Shown piece after piece: positions 2,115 to 13,458 of a stretch of 64,000 nt of DNA. Both the position numbers and the translations under genes were made by a program. The notes beneath the pieces were generated by a model. It did not search any database. It was not told where the DNA came from and saw only the letters and a program-made list of their open reading frames with translations. Where the stretch lies: IMG/VR virus record IMGVR_UViG_3300046167_000453, positions 1 through 64,000 of that record; one strand, written 5' to 3'. This stretch comes from a virus. The stretch's first letter is position 1. Every line of letters begins with the position of its first letter.

Positions 2115-2398
2115 GTAGAAATAAAAATAATAAAAAAAGAATTAGAGCGATTCTAGAAGAAGGGCCAAAAACAACAGGTCAAATTATGACAAGGTTGAAA
2201 GATGACGAATCTACTAGAGGAACAAGAAAGATTACTGTAAATGGTGAAATAATTGGATATAAGAAAGTTAAGCGTTCTAATAGGCGTTTAGATGCACCTA
2301 CTATGAACCAATTGTGTAACATTATGCGAAGTGTTGCAAATAAAGAAGGCTTTTGTAAAGAAACGAAGCAGGTAATTTGGGAATTAAAGGTGGAATAA
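2111..2398 (+). CDS. Small winged-helix-like DNA-binding protein
   Basis: A 95-residue basic protein overlapping the RfcL end by 4 bases. The N-terminus RIRAILEEGPKTTGQIMTRL has the spacing of a winged-helix first and second helix, and the second half (MNQLCNIMRSVANKEGF...VIWEL) fits a recognition helix plus wing. It resembles in size and pattern the two small proteins at 8441 and 8635. Position between the two clamp-loader genes suggests a role in early regulation or replication. No specific family is recognised. Confidence 0.5.
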   Translation: MSRNKNNKKRIRAILEEGPKTTGQIMTRLKDDESTRGTRKITVNGEIIGYKKVKRSNRRLDAPTMNQLCNIMRSVANKEGFCKETKQVIWELKVE

Positions 2399-2400
2399 AT

Positions 2401-3090
2401 ATGTTATGGACAGAAAAATATAGACCAAAGAAGATAGGAGATATTGTAGGGCAAGAACATTTTGTAATGGATGCCGCTACTTGGATTGAAGAAAGAAATA
2501 TGCCAAATGTATTATTGTTTGGTAATGCAGGAACAGGTAAAACTGCATCTGGAATTGCATTAGCGAGAGATATTTTAGGTGATTGTTTTAATGATAACTT
2601 TGTAGAAGTAAATGCTTCCGATGATAGGCGACTTGAAGTTGTAAGAACAACAATTAAGAATGTAGCCCAAAGTGGAACAATTGGAGATGTGCCTTTTCGA
2701 GTAATTCTACTGGATGAATTAGGAGGAATGACGGTTGATGCTCAAAGCGCATTGAAGCGCATTATGGAAAGATATGCACATAATGTTCGTTTCATTATTA
2801 CTTGTAATGACCGAAGTAAGATTATTCACCCGCTACAAAGTCGGTGTGCTAATTATCATTTTAAGCCACTTACTAATGAAGTCATTCTTGGTGTAATCAA
2901 ATCAATGCTTCAAAAAGAGCAAGTAACTGTATTTGCAGATGATGAATTAGCAACCTTCATATATGAGGTAGATGGAGACTTGCGTAGAGCGATAACCGAG
3001 ATACAGGCGGCTAAGTCTTCCGGCTTCTCTTTATCGAAACAAATAGAATCGTCTCACAAAGAATACAATGAAATATTAATCGAAATTTAA
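2401..3090 (+). CDS. rfcS: Clamp-loader small subunit RfcS, N-terminal and central parts
   Basis: ATG 2401 follows GGTGGA and begins MLWTEKYRPK, the conserved start of clamp-loader subunits. Walker A is FGNAGTGKT, followed by EVNASDDR, Walker B LLDELGGM, the SRC motif (LQSRCANYHF) with the arginine finger, and sensor 2 around GDLRRAITEIQ. These are the hallmarks of archaeal RfcS, which loads PCNA at primer ends. The frame stops at 3090 at about residue 229, before the C-terminal collar domain. The missing domain is present immediately downstream in another frame (3072-3314). Joined length would be about 304 residues, close to typical RfcS. Confidence 0.93.
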   Translation: MLWTEKYRPKKIGDIVGQEHFVMDAATWIEERNMPNVLLFGNAGTGKTASGIALARDILGDCFNDNFVEVNASDDRRLEVVRTTIKNVAQSGTIGDVPFRVILLDELGGMTVDAQSALKRIMERYAHNVRFIITCNDRSKIIHPLQSRCANYHFKPLTNEVILGVIKSMLQKEQVTVFADDELATFIYEVDGDLRRAITEIQAAKSSGFSLSKQIESSHKEYNEILIEI

Positions 3091-4913: not shown

Positions 4914-5664
4914 GAAAGAAAAAACAAATTTTAAAGAATTGATGGCTCAAAAAAGAGCGCAACGAAAAGCACGAATGGTATTAGGTATTTGGGGAGAACC
5001 CAAGACCGGAAAGACTGGAATTGCATTAGACTTCCCCGATAAGAACATTTATGTTCTTGATTGGGATAGAGGCGTTGAATCAACTTGGTTTGAACACCAT
5101 GATGCAACAGACCGAATCAATGTATATTGTCCAATTGTAATGCGAAAGGATAACATTATGGATATAGATAAGAGCGAACAAAACTCTCTCGACTTCATTA
5201 ACTTTGCTAAAGAACAAATGGAAGCAGGTGAAGACATTGTATTCGTTATGGATGGTGTTGATACTTGGCTTGATAGTTGTATTCTAAAGGTTAATCCTAA
5301 CCCAAGAGTTGTGACAAAGATTATGCCGTTTCAGTATGGTAATAGAAACAAGACTTTCTATTTCCTATTGGAAGCAATTTACCAATTGAATTGTGATGTA
5401 ATTTACATTACTCACGAAACAGAAAAGTATGTTGATAATACCCCTGTTGGTGTGCAACCTGCTTGGAAAGATTGGGGCGGAAAACTGGAACAAGAGATTT
5501 ACTGCTCAAAGAAGAAGGTCAAGAATGAATTACATTTCAGTGCTGAATTGATTGGTTCAAGAACCAATGGTAATTTAGTCGGAAAGAAATGGACTGTGCG
5601 AGAAGGAACTCCCCCTAATATTCAATGGAACGGTGTTCCTGAATTAAGGGAGGGAAAGGTTTGA
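4891..5664 (+). CDS. Sak4-like RecA-family ATPase / recombinase
   Basis: A 257-residue protein with Walker A GEPKTGKTG (about residues 35-43), a beta strand and aspartates after it (NIYVLDWDRGVES), Walker B-like DIVFVMDGVD and a later CDVIYITHETEK strand. Size and motif spacing match Sak4-type single-strand annealing ATPases (AAA_24 family) of phages, which cooperate with ssDNA-binding proteins. The start is GTG 4891 overlapping the previous gene. It lies between a ssDNA-binding candidate and the clamp, supporting a recombination-dependent replication role. Radically reduced RadA is an alternative name for the same fold. Confidence 0.75.
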   Translation: MIGLLGIKKEKTNFKELMAQKRAQRKARMVLGIWGEPKTGKTGIALDFPDKNIYVLDWDRGVESTWFEHHDATDRINVYCPIVMRKDNIMDIDKSEQNSLDFINFAKEQMEAGEDIVFVMDGVDTWLDSCILKVNPNPRVVTKIMPFQYGNRNKTFYFLLEAIYQLNCDVIYITHETEKYVDNTPVGVQPAWKDWGGKLEQEIYCSKKKVKNELHFSAELIGSRTNGNLVGKKWTVREGTPPNIQWNGVPELREGKV

Positions 5665-6428
5665 AGTTTGTTGTAAATAACAAACAAATGGAGAAAGCAT
5701 TAACAGACATTCAAGGAAAAGGAAAGTATCTCGGTAATGGAGGACTTGGCTCATCTAAGATGGGTTCTTACTTTTACATGACACTTAATGATAATTCTTT
5801 GGAGATTTGGAACGGGGATGCTACATTTGGAATGAATATTACATTAACCGTAGAAGGCGTAACGAATGGTTCTTTTATTGGTGATGCTAATTTTATTATT
5901 CCTTACTTGAAAAAGTTTGGTGAAAGTGTATTCTTTGAGAGTGGAGACTTTTTGAAATTAACTTCTGGAACAAAGAAGGCTTCTCTACCTATGGTGGTTA
6001 ATCACCCAAACATGGATGCTATCTCTCGTATTAGAGAAATGGTAAAGCACATTTCATATGAAGAAGCATTAGACAAACTTTGGTCTTTTGGCTCAAAAAC
6101 TTTTGAAGGGGCATTTCAATTAAATAGTGATATTTTTAATGAAGCAATAAGTCTTTGTGAATTAGTTAAGAGTGGAGTTTACAAACTAAACTATCTCGGT
6201 GGTAATGTAACCTTTTCAAGTAGAGCAAACGCTTCAAACCAATATGAACAAACAATTCAATTAGCATCAGCGATAGGAGAAGACGCAACGCTTGAATATT
6301 CAGGCCCGCTACATAACTTCTTTGAAAAAGGACAGACTCTTAACTTTTATGTGAAAGATGAATTCCCTTTAATTATTGTAGCCAATAACAGAATGATATT
6401 AAAAGCCCCGTATTCGGGAGGAAATTAA
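5661..6428 (+). CDS. pcn: PCNA-like sliding clamp
   Basis: A 255-residue protein of the right length for PCNA, starting with TTG 5661 (GGGAGGGAAAGG upstream). It has the repeated beta-strand pattern of clamp domains, with SLEIWNGDATFGMNITL resembling the PCNA segment around its DNA-facing sheet, and a C-terminal DEFPLIIVANNRMILKAPY resembling the final PCNA strand motif. Similarity is diffuse, as usual for viral clamps. Its role is supported by PIP-box-like C-termini on RfcL (QKTLGDYL) and PolB (QTKLEDWF) in the same operon. Confidence 0.72.
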   Translation: MKFVVNNKQMEKALTDIQGKGKYLGNGGLGSSKMGSYFYMTLNDNSLEIWNGDATFGMNITLTVEGVTNGSFIGDANFIIPYLKKFGESVFFESGDFLKLTSGTKKASLPMVVNHPNMDAISRIREMVKHISYEEALDKLWSFGSKTFEGAFQLNSDIFNEAISLCELVKSGVYKLNYLGGNVTFSSRANASNQYEQTIQLASAIGEDATLEYSGPLHNFFEKGQTLNFYVKDEFPLIIVANNRMILKAPYSGGN

Positions 6429-6429
6429 A

Positions 6430-6642
6430 ATGATAATTAGTAAATGTATAGATGAAAAGCATATTTACACAGCATGGAGAGAAAACGGAGAAAGAAAGTT
6501 TAAACTTGAAGCACATGAGCCATACTTCTTTATTGAGGATGATGAGTTTGAATTTGAAAACTATACAGTGAACAAATACATTTCTCGTTCTTTCAAGTAT
6601 GAGAAAGGAGGATTGGGTTTCTCTTCAAGGAAAGTCCTTTGA
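6430..6642 (+). CDS. polB: Family B DNA polymerase, N-terminal fragment
   Basis: Seventy residues starting at ATG 6430, with the N-terminal PolB pattern including HEPYFFIEDDEFE (compare PYFYV in archaeal PolB). The frame is lost near YEKGGLG. In the other frames the expected PolB sequence continues: EDWVSLQGKSF in one and KKVIVEQA in another. Removing one A near 6604-6606 and one base near 6641 gives a continuous N-terminal domain. Two one-base errors within 40 bases is the simplest explanation. Confidence 0.75.
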   Translation: MIISKCIDEKHIYTAWRENGERKFKLEAHEPYFFIEDDEFEFENYTVNKYISRSFKYEKGGLGFSSRKVL

Positions 6643-8114
6643 AGAAAGTTATTGTTGAACAAGCAACGGATATTTACAAGGCTCGTAAAATGTGGAATAA
6701 AACATATGAAGCAGATGTGCCTTTTGGATTTAGATATGCTATTGATAAGTTAAATGAACTACCTGAATTTAAACTGCGAAAGTGGTATTGGGATATGGAA
6801 TGGCAACAAGGCGGAGAACACCATGATAAGATTACTACTATTGTAATGTATGATAATTATGATGAGAAGTATTACCAATGGGTTTGGTTTCCTAAAGGAT
6901 TAGAACCTAATATTACTCCCTATGGGATTTCGGGTAAATCTATCCATGAATTTGAAACTAAATGGTTTAGTAGTGAAAAAGATATGATTGAATCATTTAT
7001 CAATGTTATGATAGATAAAGACCCCGATATGTTAATAGCATGGTTTGGCCTTAAATTCGATTTGCCTAAATTACTTGAAAGGTGTTGTGCATTGGGTATC
7101 AACCCTATGCGTATGTCTCCAATTAACCGCATAGACGGGGTTAAAAAGACCGGCAACGGCTTTACTTTCAGTAAGGGTGAAAGTGGATTCTCTCCTATAC
7201 AACAGCCATTAGGGGGTCGCATAACCCTCAATTTAGACCTTGCCTTTGAGCGACAATGGAATGATTCACAAAGAGGAACATTGCCATCAATGAGTCTTGA
7301 GTTTGTATCTCAAACATTATTCGGTGAAGGTAAATCAAAGGAAACTATTTTTGAAGACCCGAATGAGTTTTACCGTAGAGGTTGGCTTGAAGATACAGAA
7401 GCCTATTTGAAATATGCTTTAATAGATGTTGAGTTACTTGTGAGAATAGATGAAACAAACTTTTGTAGTGAAGCGATTATTGCACTACAACGATTACTTG
7501 TTGCACCGTTTGAAGCGTGTTTTTATGCGAGTCACATGGGTTCTATTTACTTTATGCGTAATGCTGATTGGATTTGTAAGACTGGAAGTAAAGTGGATAA
7601 AAGAGAAACTTATGACGGTGCTATGATTTACGACCCGCTTAGTGAAGGAACAAACGGATTACATTTGAATGTAGCCGCCTTTGATTTTGCCGGTCTTTAT
7701 CCATCAATGATGATTGCTCGCAATATTTCTTTTGAAACTAAAAGCGAAGAACCTACGGAGTTTGCAGTTAATATCGCTACTCCAAGAGACTTTAGCCCTG
7801 TAACAAGAAAGCACATGTTGTATTACAAAACAGATAAATTGGGCTTATTGCCAAGAGCAGTTCTCGAATTGAAAGAGTTGCGAAATGAATATAAGCGTCT
7901 TATGAGAGATGCGAGAGAAGCAGGAAACGATTCGGAAGTAGTTAAGTGGAATAACAATCAAATGGCTGTAAAGCGTTTAATGGCATCTTTTTATGGCATT
8001 GTTGCATTTCAAGGATTTGGTTGGGCTGATGTTAATTTGGCCGCAAGTATTACTGCAAGTGCAAGAGAAGCAATTAGATTAGCAGCATTCAAAGCAAAGG
8101 AGATGAAAATATGA
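6639..8114 (+). CDS. polB: Family B DNA polymerase, exonuclease domain and palm motifs A and B
   Basis: A clear PolB core. Exonuclease motif I is YWDMEW (D52, E54), motif II WFGLKFDLP (D141), motif III YALID (Y259, D263). Polymerase motif A is DFAGLYPS (D349) and motif B KRLMASFYG (K445-G453). The frame ends at KEMKI (TGA 8112-8114), precisely where the motif C strand should start. Motif C is found 1.36 kb downstream at 9479. TYEADVPFGFRY near the start is the conserved N-terminal PolB signature, so this fragment joins the 70-residue piece upstream. Confidence 0.95.
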   Translation: MKKVIVEQATDIYKARKMWNKTYEADVPFGFRYAIDKLNELPEFKLRKWYWDMEWQQGGEHHDKITTIVMYDNYDEKYYQWVWFPKGLEPNITPYGISGKSIHEFETKWFSSEKDMIESFINVMIDKDPDMLIAWFGLKFDLPKLLERCCALGINPMRMSPINRIDGVKKTGNGFTFSKGESGFSPIQQPLGGRITLNLDLAFERQWNDSQRGTLPSMSLEFVSQTLFGEGKSKETIFEDPNEFYRRGWLEDTEAYLKYALIDVELLVRIDETNFCSEAIIALQRLLVAPFEACFYASHMGSIYFMRNADWICKTGSKVDKRETYDGAMIYDPLSEGTNGLHLNVAAFDFAGLYPSMMIARNISFETKSEEPTEFAVNIATPRDFSPVTRKHMLYYKTDKLGLLPRAVLELKELRNEYKRLMRDAREAGNDSEVVKWNNNQMAVKRLMASFYGIVAFQGFGWADVNLAASITASAREAIRLAAFKAKEMKI

Positions 8115-8224
8115 AATGTAAAAAACCATTAGCACACAACCCTCAATTTGAAGGAAAGCACCATTGTAAATTATGTGAAGGAGAGAAAAAAAATGGAGAA
8201 GGAAAAGAAAGAAACAATTTGTGA
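8111..8224 (+). CDS. Tiny Cys-containing protein, first gene of the PolB-splitting cassette
   Basis: A 37-residue reading frame starting at ATG 8111, overlapping the polymerase stop (ATGA). An AAAGGAG ribosome site at 8095-8101 lies within the last polymerase codons. The product has MKCKK and HHCKLCEG, three cysteines plus histidines that could bind zinc. It is too short for family assignment. Confidence 0.4.
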   Translation: MKCKKPLAHNPQFEGKHHCKLCEGEKKNGEGKERNNL

Positions 8225-8444
8225 CATAACTGAAAGATGTGGTAAAATAATTTATCCTGATGCTAATAAGGTTCATGGACTTGTAATGGAGAAGAGAAAA
8301 GAAGGTATTAAGTTAAATTATTATTACTGCGAGTATTGTTTGGGTTTTCATACAACGAGTATGACTATGAAGCAACAGAGGCAATACTTGTTCAGCATTG
8401 AAAAGTCACACAGATACAGAAGAAAGAAGGAGGAATCAAAATGA
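8193..8444 (+). CDS. Small zinc-ribbon-like protein in the PolB cassette
   Basis: ATG 8193 follows AAGGAG at 8178-8183. The roughly 83-residue basic product has ICDITERCGKIIYP in the first half and YYYCEYCLGFHTTS in the second, giving two Cys pairs spaced like a zinc ribbon, and a Lys/Arg-rich C-terminus. It overlaps the next gene by 4 bases. Probably a nucleic-acid-binding protein; no named family. Confidence 0.55.
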   Translation: MEKEKKETICDITERCGKIIYPDANKVHGLVMEKRKEGIKLNYYYCEYCLGFHTTSMTMKQQRQYLFSIEKSHRYRRKKEESK

Positions 8445-8638
8445 AATTAATAGAAAAGTGGGTCATGGAATCAATCAATAGCCTTAATACAACATTTACA
8501 GTAGAAGAAGTAAGAGATAATATTATATCCAAAAAAGGTAATAGTCTTATTATTGGAAGTAATACCCAACTTGCATCTTATTGTAGAAGGCATGGTTATA
8601 GGATTGGCCCAATGACATATAGGAGGAAAAGAATATGA
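8441..8638 (+). CDS. Small winged-helix-like protein in the PolB cassette
   Basis: A 65-residue basic protein with AAGGAGG upstream. The pattern is a helix (EKWVMESINSLN), FTVEEVRDNIISKKG as second helix, a spaced serine/threonine-rich turn, and QLASYCRRHGYRIG as recognition helix and wing. The next gene has the same organisation, so the two look like tandem relatives. Likely DNA-binding. Confidence 0.5.
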   Translation: MKLIEKWVMESINSLNTTFTVEEVRDNIISKKGNSLIIGSNTQLASYCRRHGYRIGPMTYRRKRI

Positions 8639-8847
8639 CTAAAATGAATTCTAGAATGAGAGGATGGATTGATAAAGCAATAGTGGGTCAAGAAGAACCA
8701 TTTACTGCTAGAGAAATATATGAAAAGATACTTAGGGATAGACCTAATTCAAACTACATAACGAGTGTATATTCAGTGGGTTCATACTTAAGTAGAATTT
8801 GTATCAAGCAAAGAAATAAAGAATATAATATATATTGGAGGAAATAA
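8635..8847 (+). CDS. Small winged-helix-like protein, tandem relative of the previous gene
   Basis: A 70-residue basic protein with an AGGAGG site just upstream of ATG 8635. It shows RGWIDKAIVGQ, FTAREIYEKILRDRP and a later VGSYLSRICIKQRNKEYNIYW, the same helix-helix-wing order as the preceding gene. Probably DNA-binding. Its overlap with the previous gene shows co-translation. Confidence 0.5.
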   Translation: MTKMNSRMRGWIDKAIVGQEEPFTAREIYEKILRDRPNSNYITSVYSVGSYLSRICIKQRNKEYNIYWRK

Positions 8848-8848
8848 C

Positions 8849-9019
8849 ATGAGAACAAAAATAGTAACAGTTAAAGTATCGTATGATACAGAAGAAACAT
8901 GGGATATTACCATGCAAGAAATAAAAGAAATATTTCAAATGATGAATAACTTGAAGCGTCATGCTATTATTTTAGAAGTTGAGCAGGGTGTCAATTATGA
9001 TGATGGACAGAACGAATGA
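8849..9019 (+). CDS. Hypothetical 56-residue protein in the PolB cassette
   Basis: ATG 8849 is preceded by GGAGG. The product starts with a beta strand pattern (TKIVTVKVSYD), then a helix (ITMQEIKEIFQMMNNLKRH) and a strand (AIILEVEQG), suggesting a compact alpha/beta fold. No family recognised. Supported by ribosome site and tight spacing. Confidence 0.45.
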   Translation: MRTKIVTVKVSYDTEETWDITMQEIKEIFQMMNNLKRHAIILEVEQGVNYDDGQNE

Positions 9020-9128
9020 GTTATTAGAAGAATTGCTGGCTATGATAGCAAGAAGTAATAAGATATTGATGATGGTAAATATCGTGAACATAGCGACCAT
9101 TATAACAATAATTACGGTGGTAATATGA
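8997..9128 (+). CDS. Tiny predicted membrane protein in the PolB cassette
   Basis: Three consecutive ATGs start this frame. The roughly 43-residue product has an amphipathic N-terminus (DRTNELLEELLAMIARSNK) and a strongly hydrophobic C-terminal segment (VNIVNIATIITIITVVI), likely one membrane helix. It overlaps both neighbours by a few bases. Function unknown. Confidence 0.4.
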   Translation: MMMDRTNELLEELLAMIARSNKILMMVNIVNIATIITIITVVI

Positions 9129-9289
9129 ACGAATTGAAAGAAATGAAAAAGAAAATTAAGATGCTAGAAGACGAATTGGCTGAATTGTATAAAGACAATA
9201 AGGCACTTACTAAGATGTATAAGGCAATTCAAGAATTACAAGAACAACATGACGCACCTGCGGCCAAGTTTACATATTATTTGGGATGA
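9125..9289 (+). CDS. Small coiled-coil protein in the PolB cassette
   Basis: A 54-residue protein starting ATG 9125 after GGTGG, overlapping the membrane protein stop. Residues 1-40 are a highly charged heptad-like helix (EMKKKIKMLEDELAELYKDN), ending in a short Ala/Pro-rich tail. Probably an oligomerising coiled coil; no family. Confidence 0.45.
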   Translation: MNELKEMKKKIKMLEDELAELYKDNKALTKMYKAIQELQEQHDAPAAKFTYYLG

Positions 9290-9293
9290 TTAG

Positions 9294-9482
9294 ATGAGAA
9301 AAAACATCGAGAAAATTGTTTATTTTATTAAAGAATACATTAGGGAACAAAAGAGAATAGACTGGGAAAGAAGATACAATATTTACTGGAAAGTTGATGA
9401 ACAAGAAGAAAAGAGACTTAAAGAAATGTTTGGTGAAAACCCCTACAATAAAAAGAAAAATTTTTGGGATGATTATGTATGA
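9294..9482 (+). CDS. Small charged protein, last gene of the PolB cassette
   Basis: A 62-residue Lys/Glu/Arg-rich helical protein (NIEKIVYFIKEYIREQ...EEKRLKEMFGENP). Its ATG is preceded by TTGGGATGATTAG, nearly the same sequence that precedes the PolB C-terminal start at 9479 (TTTGGGATGATTATGT). It overlaps that start by 4 bases. Function unknown. Confidence 0.5.
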   Translation: MRKNIEKIVYFIKEYIREQKRIDWERRYNIYWKVDEQEEKRLKEMFGENPYNKKKNFWDDYV

Positions 9483-10363
9483 AGGTAGTATATGGACACA
9501 CTGATTCAATCTATGTTCAAATAGATTCAGTAGAAGAAGCACAAGTAGCAATTAAAGAAATAGAAGCATCAGTGAGAGAACACTTTCCTAATGTAATGCA
9601 ACTTGAACAACACCCCGTTGTATTAGAATTCGAGAAATACTATTCGGCATTGGGCGTTGGAACAACTAAAAATAGAAATGCAGGTATGATTACTTGGGAT
9701 GATGGAGAATGGTTAAAAGAACCCAAGTTTACTATGACTGGCTTTACTGCTAAAAGGGTAAGCGAAACTCCCTTTGCGAAAGAAATTCAAACGAGCGCAC
9801 TAAAACAATGGGTAAATCAAGAACCGTTGGGCAGAATAAATATTAGGTTATTTAACTTATATTCTTCTGTATTGAAAGGAGAGATACCCGTATCTTCTCT
9901 AATTAAGAGAAGTCGGTTAAAAAGTGAAAGATTTAGCGTTAAGTGTAACGAATGCAATTCTAAGTATAACTTGCATGAATGTTTAGATATTAAGTGGTGT
10001 CTAAAATGTGGAACAGATACAAGACAATTTGTTACATTACAAAATAAAAGACCTAGTGTTGGGTCAGGAATTGCAGGGGTTCTTTACGCTAAACAAAAAC
10101 ATGATATGAGTTTTGATGATTCATATTTATTTATGAAGGTAAAGCATAACGATACCTTCATAAACCCATTGACTAAGGAAGAAAAAGTCGTAGAGTATAT
10201 GTCCGGCACAACCTATGAGGACTTTAATGATTATGAGCCGGATTGGGAACACTACGCACAACAGGTCTTGAAAAAGGCCGAACCAATTTATCGAGCGATG
10301 GATTGGGACTTATCAAGTATAAGAACAGGAAAATTACAAACAAAATTAGAGGATTGGTTTTAA
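9479..10363 (+). CDS. polB: Family B DNA polymerase, motif C, thumb and PIP box
   Basis: Begins MKVVYGHTDSIYV, the PolB motif C strand-turn-strand, continuing exactly from where the upstream fragment (KEMK) ended. The first motif C aspartate is histidine (YGHTDS); the second, metal-binding one (D9) is kept. A zinc-ribbon-like insertion with C156, C159, C168, C174 and C177 sits in the thumb region. The C-terminus QTKLEDWF is a PIP box for clamp binding. With the upstream pieces the polymerase would be about 855 residues, normal for the family. The two pieces must associate or be joined for activity. Confidence 0.93.
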   Translation: MKVVYGHTDSIYVQIDSVEEAQVAIKEIEASVREHFPNVMQLEQHPVVLEFEKYYSALGVGTTKNRNAGMITWDDGEWLKEPKFTMTGFTAKRVSETPFAKEIQTSALKQWVNQEPLGRINIRLFNLYSSVLKGEIPVSSLIKRSRLKSERFSVKCNECNSKYNLHECLDIKWCLKCGTDTRQFVTLQNKRPSVGSGIAGVLYAKQKHDMSFDDSYLFMKVKHNDTFINPLTKEEKVVEYMSGTTYEDFNDYEPDWEHYAQQVLKKAEPIYRAMDWDLSSIRTGKLQTKLEDWF

Positions 10364-10364
10364 C

Positions 10365-11294
10365 ATGGAACAAGATGAAAAATATAATGCGGTAATTTCC
10401 GCTATGAGCGAATATACCTATGACTGGAAGCCGGAGAATTACGATGACCCGTCTATGCCAATATTAAAAATAACCAAGTCTTCGCTTGGTTCTTTTGGTT
10501 GGTGTAATAAAAAGTATGACTTTTCATACATTCAACGATTGCCACAAGACCAAAGCGAGGCTATGCGTAAAGGAACTGTGCTTCACAATCATAGAGAAGA
10601 CTATTTTAACGAGTTTGATATTAAGAAAGTAGATTCAATGACTGCTGATGAGGTGGGGGAATACATAACAGGAATAACACCTATTGATGAATACTATGAT
10701 ATTTCATTAAACATAGCATCGTTTGAAACAAACCGATATTTACAAGCAAGAGCAGAAAATAAGACTGATGAATACTTACCTGTATGTAACGAAGGAAAGT
10801 TTGATGCTGAAATAGTTATACCTAAAGGCCCATACAAGGGTGATGCCTCACTTAATTACCAACCGTTTACTTTACAGCGTGATTATAAGATTCATATTCA
10901 AGGAATCATTGATAGAATATTTATGGAAGATGGGGGATATGTTCCCTTTGAGTTCAAAACTGGGCCGTGGAAGGATTACAAGGCCGGTGATATGAGGAAA
11001 GAAATGGCGTTTTATCAATTGCTAATTGAAAATGCTGATGATGAAGTCTTGATTAAGAACGGCCTACGCCCTAATGTGCCTGTTACTCATTGGGGTTGGT
11101 ATTATCCTGTTTCAAACTATGTCTTTGCTCAACCTGTTAAGACTCGTTCTATGACTTCTGTTATGTTTGGTATTGCTAAACTTCTTAGAGCGTATGAAAT
11201 GAAACAGTTTCCGACTAAGTTTTATTATAAGACCTGTTCTTTTTGTAGTTTCTTTGGAATATGTGATGCCGCACAAGAAGATACATGGGTGTGA
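10365..11294 (+). CDS. Cas4/RecB-like Fe-S exonuclease
   Basis: A 309-residue PD-(D/E)xK nuclease of the Cas4/AddB type. It has one N-terminal cysteine (C47 in WCNKKY) and three C-terminal ones (C291, C294, C300), the spacing that holds a 4Fe-4S cluster. Between them are a helix with RKGTVLHNHRE, the active-site strands IIDRIF (Asp) and VPFEFKTG (Glu-x-Lys) and the QxxxY-like EMAFYQLL. Such enzymes resect DNA ends in recombination and repair. It starts 1 base after the polymerase stop, in the replication operon. Confidence 0.87.
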   Translation: MEQDEKYNAVISAMSEYTYDWKPENYDDPSMPILKITKSSLGSFGWCNKKYDFSYIQRLPQDQSEAMRKGTVLHNHREDYFNEFDIKKVDSMTADEVGEYITGITPIDEYYDISLNIASFETNRYLQARAENKTDEYLPVCNEGKFDAEIVIPKGPYKGDASLNYQPFTLQRDYKIHIQGIIDRIFMEDGGYVPFEFKTGPWKDYKAGDMRKEMAFYQLLIENADDEVLIKNGLRPNVPVTHWGWYYPVSNYVFAQPVKTRSMTSVMFGIAKLLRAYEMKQFPTKFYYKTCSFCSFFGICDAAQEDTWV

Positions 11295-11298
11295 TATT

Positions 11299-11439
11299 AT
11301 GGATGATATGCAAAAAATAGCCTTTGATGCAATAACTATTCTATCTCACTTAGGTAAATACGATGAAGATACATTGGGATATGCGAGAGCATTACTAAAT
11401 AGATATGAAGGTGTGATAAATGGACAACGAAATGATTAA
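11299..11439 (+). CDS. Hypothetical 46-residue helical protein
   Basis: ATG 11299 begins just after the nuclease stop. The product is helical and acidic (KIAFDAITILSHLGKYDEDT). It overlaps the next gene by 20 bases. No family; retained because of tight operon spacing. Confidence 0.4.
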   Translation: MDDMQKIAFDAITILSHLGKYDEDTLGYARALLNRYEGVINGQRND

Positions 11440-11794
11440 ACTGAAAGTATTAGCAAGGTCTTGGACATTCTCGGAAATATCTAATCTCAAAAAGACAATA
11501 GATGTTCTTTGTAGCGAGATATATAACGAGTCTAAACTAAGTGAAAGATTTAACTTAGTTAGAGAAGTTAAAATAAATGAAGGGTTTGTTGGACACACAT
11601 TTGAAGATGTAATGAGACAGGCTATAAAAATAAAACTATCTGGTGAAATAGCCGGAGTAATTAGAGAAATGCTAGATACAGCAACCGTAGATTTTGGAGG
11701 GAATAAAAATGAAATATCCGAGGGAAGTATGGGCGGGAAGCCACATAAAGAACGCACCACAAATGAAAAGAAGAGTAGTCTTATCGAAGATTGA
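11420..11794 (+). CDS. Hypothetical helical protein upstream of primase
   Basis: A 124-residue charged, mainly helical protein (KLKVLARSWTFSEISNLKKT...EDVMRQAIKIKLSGEIAGVI). It overlaps the primase start by 86 bases, so the last part might be a frame extension rather than functional sequence. The overlap suggests coupled translation with primase. No family recognised. Confidence 0.5.
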   Translation: MDNEMIKLKVLARSWTFSEISNLKKTIDVLCSEIYNESKLSERFNLVREVKINEGFVGHTFEDVMRQAIKIKLSGEIAGVIREMLDTATVDFGGNKNEISEGSMGGKPHKERTTNEKKSSLIED

Positions 11795-12762: not shown

Positions 12763-13458
12763 ATGTTAATTATAGATAGTAGAGAAAAAGAAGGCTCGAA
12801 ACTAGTAAAATTAGTTGAGAGTAAGGCGAAAGCACTTAATATCCAAACGGAAAAGAAGTGGCTTGAAATAGGAGATTATGTTTTTGATGATGTTTGTTTT
12901 GAAGCCAAATCAACAACAGATTTTTTAGGTTCTGTAATAAGTAAAAGACTTTGGACACAAATAGATAATATGGATAGACACTACAAGACAAATGTAGTTA
13001 TTATCTATGGCACAATCGAGGAAGCCATATTCAATGTGAAGAAATACTCAAAGGCAAACATACAAGAACCTGCTAGAAGTATTATGTTAAATAATAAATT
13101 TCTAGGTGCAATAGGTAGAATTACATTAGATACTGATGTAAAGGCTTTTTGGACTCCAACCGAAGAAGAAGCCTCATTGATAATTACAGCAATTTGTAAA
13201 ATGAAACCAATAAAAAGAGATGTTATACGCCCCGAAGTATTCAAGCGTGTAACTACTGATGATTTAAGACTTGATGTTCTCACAAGTATTAAAGGAGTAT
13301 CTATCAAAAAAGCCAAACTTCTTATTAAAGAGTTTGGTTCAGTGATGGAAATAGGAGAACAAACAGAAGAGGAATTACAGTTCCTTGAAGGCATTGGCTT
13401 AGTATTAGCCTCTCGCATTCTAAATACTTTAAATTCAGAAAAGAAGGTGAAAATATGA
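12763..13458 (+). CDS. XPF/ERCC4-family structure-specific nuclease with HhH domain
   Basis: A 231-residue protein with the ERCC4 nuclease motifs: IIDSREK (D5, E8), WLEIGDYVF and FEAKSTTDF, a variant of the ERK-x3-D catalytic motif, followed by ISKRLWTQ. The C-terminal 60 residues form a tandem helix-hairpin-helix (TSIKGVSIKKAKLLIKEFG; FLEGIGLVLASRIL) that binds branched DNA. This is the compact archaeal XPF/Mus81 layout without helicase. Such enzymes cut flaps or forks and often bind PCNA. It overlaps the helicase start by 4 bases. Confidence 0.88.
   Translation: MLIIDSREKEGSKLVKLVESKAKALNIQTEKKWLEIGDYVFDDVCFEAKSTTDFLGSVISKRLWTQIDNMDRHYKTNVVIIYGTIEEAIFNVKKYSKANIQEPARSIMLNNKFLGAIGRITLDTDVKAFWTPTEEEASLIITAICKMKPIKRDVIRPEVFKRVTTDDLRLDVLTSIKGVSIKKAKLLIKEFGSVMEIGEQTEEELQFLEGIGLVLASRILNTLNSEKKVKI

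Follow-up and report, generated by a model that had tools for sequence, protein, structure and literature searches.

To our knowledge only a few DNA polymerases are naturally made in two parts, and inteins or homing genes are the usual explanation. In Aeromonas phages 25 and 44RR the family-B polymerase of gene 43 is encoded as two genes, and in phage 25 a homing endonuclease occupies the space between them (PMC2988022). In archaea, the PolB of Nanoarchaeum equitans is split at motif C, with motifs A and B parted from the C-terminal part (PMC549080, PMC4104785), and PolB3 of the Methanobacteriales is a natural two-polypeptide enzyme (Kelman 1999, cited in PMC4104785). Promoter-less cassettes placed between phage genes with start/stop overlaps are known from the T4-type intronless homing of mobE, segG and others (PMC2988022), and a figure legend in the 2023 profile of Aoguangviridae (Magrovirales) by the International Committee on Taxonomy of Viruses (ICTV) carries a PolB-NTD/CTD label (PMC10768690). 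Each of these resembles in some respect the locus described here, the family-B DNA polymerase gene (polB) of IMG/VR virus record IMGVR_UViG_3300046167_000453, a contig of 71,693 bases of which we analysed the first 64,000 (hereafter the window). This polB is encoded as an N-terminal and a C-terminal half (N-half and C-half) with eight small genes between them. Very probably, the window encodes a replicative PolB made as two polypeptides from coupled genes of one operon, the junction of which is a gene-insertion slot, likely filled by recombination.

Organisation of the polB locus

The N-half (6430..8114, plus strand) contains the exonuclease domain, motif A (DFAGLYPS) and motif B (KRLMASFYG), matches Pfam DNA_pol_B and DNA_pol_B_exo1 as well as phrog_262, and ends in ...AAFKAKEMKI with its stop at 8114. 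The C-half (9479..10363, plus strand) begins with MKVVYGHTDS and contains motif C (YGHTDS, 9491-9508, plus strand), the palm strand, a zinc ribbon, the thumb and a C-terminal PCNA-interacting protein (PIP) box (QTKLEDWF, 10337..10360, plus strand). The gap between them is 1,364 bp long and holds eight small plus-strand open reading frames (ORFs), mostly linked by short stop/start overlaps; a preliminary description of the window, made from its letters, had reported two polB genes with eight tiny genes between them, and both the junctions and the ORFs are as it described. It had also started the N-half at 6639. In the window the N-half is read as two plus-strand ORFs (6430-6642 and 6639-8114), but the frame shift near 6620-6645 that separates them is private to this contig, the N-half being continuous in all ~90 relatives read, and we therefore place the start at 6430. 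The shift may be an artefact of sequencing or assembly, or else a true lesion of this one genome.

The split across relatives

Relatives were gathered from IMG/VR by the N-half, the C-half, the protein of one cassette gene (TM, see below), a DNA pattern for YGHTDSIY and an N-half alignment. polB is split at the same place in all 311 loci with both halves readable, and all of them have YGHTDS; these are counts of loci rather than of viruses, because the same contigs were fetched more than once, and after removal of duplicates they amount to 194 distinct N-half ends and 200 distinct inserts. Of the remaining loci with an N-half, some lie on contigs that stop short; the others are the HF2 outgroup and two loci in which the context of motif C varies, L348 (DIKYGHTDS) and L365 (YAHTDS), both also split. 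Among 265 matches of the pattern scan in IMG/VR, none lay in an ORF that extends more than 60 aa upstream of the motif, and the search with the N-half alignment gave no intact relative either; a single intact polB, with YGDTDS, was found only in the distant haloviruses HF2 and HRTV-27 (25% identical). A scan of cellular genome contigs returned no cellular relatives of the N-half. The preliminary description had named an assembly chimera, or an intact polB, as what would undo its account; identical junctions recur in many independent contigs, which rules out the former for the window, and no intact polB with YGHTDS was found in these searches.

Three relatives (L189, L208 and L350) have no insert at all, the N-half stop and C-half start overlapping as ATGA in different frames. 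The check proposed at the outset, comparing relatives with and without the cassette, is provided by L350: its N-half tail is 97.5% and its C-half 91% identical to those of L240 and L346, which carry a 361 bp insert, and in both forms polB consists of two genes. On the tree L350 falls next to relatives that bear inserts; its empty target, itself still split, can be set against the filled sites of L240 and L192. Since three relatives are split without any insert, the cassette is not what keeps PolB split, contrary to what the preliminary description had supposed. The split is old, universal and position-fixed in a large magrovirus-like group.

The N-half 3' end (CAAAGCAAAGGAGATGAAAATATGA, 8090..8114, plus strand) combines a Shine-Dalgarno sequence with an ATGA stop/start overlap; a Shine-Dalgarno-like motif lies in the last 25 nt of the N-half in 192 of 194 distinct ends, and the N-half stop overlaps the next start in 171 of them. 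A similar motif precedes the C-half start in 140-167 of 188 cases, depending on strictness. That each half keeps its own ribosome site, as the preliminary description had it, agrees with these counts; the window's own C-half site (GGGATGATT) is weak. The PIP box noticed in the C-half is well founded: across 47 aligned C-halves its Q and W never vary, and the pattern Q..h..W[FWY] is matched by 153 distinct C-halves.

Gain, loss and replacement of genes in the gap

The gap between the halves is a slot in which small genes are gained, lost and replaced. Its length ranges from -4 to ~2,550 bp (standard deviation 500 bp, interquartile range 408-1245), against a median gap of a few bases at several neighbouring joints in the same gene block. 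The two nearest genomes have halves that are 100% and 99.3% identical, yet there is a difference of 89 bp between their cassettes. The clade to which the window belongs has a three-gene core, B56-TM-CC, that keeps a constant order; the smallest cassette (474-480 bp) is this core alone, and variable genes lie ahead of it and in the space that separates CC from the C-half. In the N-half tree this core stays within one clade of 59 representatives (Shimodaira-Hasegawa-like approximate likelihood ratio test support 100), and it is complete in 102 of 200 distinct inserts, while L053 and L031 keep CC as their sole core gene. The slots of deeper lineages hold other tiny genes, such as the hydrophobic pair f5/f8, zinc ribbons and a helix-turn-helix (HTH)-like family. 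The insert of one distant relative (L201) contains a PemK/MazF-type toxin-like gene (Pfam E = 4e-16).

Families of seven of the eight window ORFs recur widely in relatives. In the variable positions ahead of the core lie a 37-aa gene with a zinc-type CxxC (8111..8224, plus strand like all that follow), with its family in 18 of 54 close cassettes; an 83-aa gene with CxxC (8193..8444; 8/54); a 65-aa winged-helix-like gene (8441..8638; 35/54), assigned its fold by sequence appearance and without a usable Pfam or PHROG match; and a 70-aa winged-helix-like gene of the same family (8635..8847). The core then follows, with evolutionary rates given as pooled ratios of nonsynonymous to synonymous substitution (dN/dS): B56 (8849..9019; 51/54, in a single clade; ~0.26), TM (8997..9128; ~43 aa with one predicted hydrophobic helix; 52/54; ~0.16) and the 54-aa coiled-coil-like CC (9125..9289; 53/54; ~0.34). 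The exception to wide recurrence is the 62-aa gene in the second variable position (9294..9482), found in 3 of 54 cassettes and not in L002.

TM is the most conserved of the core genes and CC the fastest-evolving of five genes measured. In the best 80 IMG/VR matches TM adjoins a polB half, bar one 279-base fragment, and it is nearly invariant among viruses with polB differing by ~30%. The idea of a hidden DNA or RNA element in TM was dropped because, ribosome site aside, its third-position conservation (0.78) is only slightly above that of polB segments (0.71-0.74). An antisense ORF over B56 in 47 cassettes was taken as the shadow of a conserved plus-strand gene, and Pfam matches of the tiny genes (SNAD3 deaminase, ABC_tran_CTD and others), all below curated cut-offs, were ignored.

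Signs of insertion and recombination

Exact copies of the N-half end, 16-22 nt long, are present in seven of the 171 inserts; control windows gave none longer than 14 nt. In L046 a GIY-YIG gene stands between the N-half and the gene that directly follows the N-half in L033, and its own end, KAKEMKE, is a copy of the old junction; in L246 an 89-aa gene shows a like duplication. The sequence of L014 follows L093 at 98% identity as far as the end of the N-half; starting 23 nt short of this end, it follows L246 at 95% identity, through the insert and the C-half and beyond. L316 switches partner just before the C-half. Together, the copies of the N-half end and the switch in L014 point to insertion by recombination at the N-half end. 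A fuller version of this history, which we hold more tentatively, is that genes were added successively at the N-half 3' end, leaving scars, that the joint lets unrelated viruses swap C-half, cargo and downstream genes, and that the permanent split makes the slot tolerable.

Nuclease genes of the GIY-YIG (T5orf172/MUG113 with HTH) or HNH type sit in the slot of some relatives, although neither Pfam nor PHROG finds one in the window's cassette. The suggestion that the cassette is a former mobile insertion stands in part: the insert is variable, and relatives have such nuclease genes and duplicated N-half ends, but a relic of an intein is not supported. One 184.7-kb record, IMGVR_UViG_3300021958_000021 (L053, L178 and L180), has two polB loci with halves that look swapped, and is probably two co-assembled viruses joined at polB.

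The halves as probable parts of one polymerase

The Pfam DNA_pol_B profile is divided between the two genes, with positions 28-193 on the N-half and 222-371 on the C-half, and the PDB structure matches of the halves are likewise complementary, the C-half profile search leading to Pol delta residues 692-823. AlphaFold models the N-half of L002 with a predicted local distance difference test score (pLDDT) of 89 and an archaeal PolB as best structural match, and the C-half with a pLDDT of 83 and family-B polymerases as matches. Pooled dN/dS is 0.12 for the N-half and 0.11 for the C-half, so both halves are under selection. All catalytic motif residues are conserved across 47 N-halves and as many C-halves, apart from the first Asp of motif C: this position is His (YGHTDS) in all 311 split loci and lies in a YAHTDS context in L365. 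Primer-independent PolBs that lack this motif C Asp are still active (PMC7544198). The change from D to H in motif C and the split co-occur in the magrovirus-like group. The zinc ribbon of the C-half (CxxC...CxxC, residues ~156-177) is present in most relatives and lost or reduced in some.

In Aeromonas phage 25 the two gene-43 products co-purify and have polymerase activity (PMC2988022). Non-covalent assembly of the present halves is thus credible, and we infer that they form an active enzyme in this way. Of the proposal that a functional split polymerase is held together by its partners, purifying selection and the shared active site favour the first element; a need for cassette proteins is not supported, given the empty forms and the clades with wholly different inserts.

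A model for the locus

Under our preferred reading, the replicative polymerase would be made as an N-half with the exonuclease and motifs A and B and a C-half with motif C, thumb and PIP box, from two translationally coupled genes of one operon; as two polypeptides from two genes, it would form its active site only when the halves assemble. Small genes would enter just past the terminal Shine-Dalgarno/ATGA of the N-half, sometimes leaving a copy of that end behind, and would be lost or replaced between lineages, with overlapping start/stop coupling keeping the C-half expressed despite the inserts. Homologous recombination during co-infection is a presumed driver, joined at times by GIY-YIG or HNH nucleases that move through the slot. 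In the window, the B56-TM-CC core of its clade is flanked on both sides by faster-changing genes.

Several points weigh against this reading. The loci are redundant, the same contigs having been fetched repeatedly. Assembly and activity of the halves are both argued indirectly, and with Asp replaced by His throughout motif C, activity is not guaranteed. Most inserts have neither a duplication scar nor a nuclease, and the KE[ML] ends are partly a Shine-Dalgarno sequence read in frame. Finally, assembly chimeras probably account for some recombinant loci, among them L178 on the 184.7-kb contig, and may also account for L014 and L316.

Origin of the split

The best-surviving alternative, which we regard as a real though lesser possibility, is that polB was split once, when a free-standing gene for a homing endonuclease entered ahead of motif C, and that other genes later took its place, as has been put forward for split genes of T4-like phages. 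The GIY-YIG and HNH genes of several relatives, the duplicated N-half ends inside some inserts and the precedent of a Seg endonuclease in the split gene 43 of the T4-like phage 25 (PMC2988022) all suit this origin, as does tree parsimony, where three independent changes of the empty state agree with an occupied ancestral slot. Set against it are the window and most inserts, which hold no nuclease, and the empty forms, in which the split is independent of any insert. The order of events also admits both directions, since a first insertion may have made the split or an already split gene may have been invaded later, and the same doubt is raised for phage 25, whose endonuclease may have entered a gene already in two parts (PMC2988022).

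It is unlikely that the cassette proteins, above all B56-TM-CC, are accessory subunits that bridge or anchor the halves. The core does occur in about half of the distinct inserts (102/200), in constant order next to the C-half, TM keeps beside polB halves, the core has coiled-coil and membrane character, and the sister clade's slot also holds tiny hydrophobic proteins (f5, f8). However, the core is absent from the other half of the inserts and from all empty forms, and the one component retained in L053 and L031, CC, is the fastest-evolving gene measured.

Erratic loss of a pol-c intein, which would have left the split behind as proposed for the Methanobacteriales, we consider very improbable. 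Motif C does contain a classic site for inteins, YGD|TDS (PMC549080), and split archaeal PolB has been attributed to erratic intein excision (PMC4104785); but in every relative the break, before M-K-V-V-Y-G-H, precedes the pol-c site by about six residues, so that the split does not fall exactly on the known intein site, which corrects the preliminary description. The halves end and start cleanly, a few residues at most from the palm sequence, with no intein domain or fused intein parts. Group I and II introns were rejected too, no Rfam intron matching the polB locus (6000-11500) up to E = 1. A decaying PolB with non-functional halves, the virus being replicated by a host enzyme, could be read from the His of motif C and the window's frame-shifted N-half, but is just as improbable given a dN/dS near 0.12, retention of all other catalytic residues, a frame shift private to the window contig and both halves in every locus long enough.

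Genomic context and comparison with known systems

The group is a very common one of marine viruses, which appear to have archaeal hosts. The window encodes RFC-S at 2377-3090 on the plus strand, and its major capsid protein, portal and TerL genes on the minus strand, so that archaeal-type replisome genes and a tailed-virus head module are oppositely oriented. For the gene just ahead of polB (5661-6428), neither Pfam nor the PDB gave a sequence match; from its position we would guess a sliding clamp (PCNA). Directly 3' of the C-half lies a PD-(D/E)XK nuclease gene (10365-11294), and further downstream an ERCC4-type nuclease with helix-hairpin-helix domains (12763-13458).

The Aoguangviridae share with these viruses a two-gene PolB, a marine origin, a clamp-loader small subunit, extensive replication genes and HK97-type head genes, and the label in the figure legend of their ICTV profile means that the split itself is not new (PMC10768690). 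The profile text, in the parts covered here, describes no gene slot, empty forms, turnover or recombination (PMC10768690), and we found no published account of the slot, the empty forms or recombination, the primary magrovirus papers (Philosof 2017, Zhou 2023, Prabhu 2025) being outside the scope of the search. The split is thus already in print, and what seems new is the slot and its turnover.

Here, in a virus group common worldwide, hundreds of loci share a fixed two-part polymerase, with an essential gene as the docking place for small virus genes of mostly unassigned function, and with a joint at which polymerase halves seem to be re-paired between lineages. The natural empty-site controls allow a direct test of how a polymerase withstands a break through the palm that holds its active site. 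In the Aeromonas phages, by contrast, gene 43 is split in the fingers, after motif A and ahead of motif B (43B starts upstream of NSLYG), rather than before motif C, and the 44RR gap is ~48 nt of untranslated sequence, not a slot with turnover of many genes. The N. equitans PolB genes lie far apart and are joined through a trans-splicing split intein at YGD|TDS, whereas no intein is present here; the split PolB3 of the Methanobacteriales belongs to a cellular lineage and is thought to stem from intein excision (PMC4104785), whereas the present one is viral. In T4-type intronless homing the cargo is the endonuclease itself (PMC2988022), whereas most inserts between these polymerase halves carry no nuclease.

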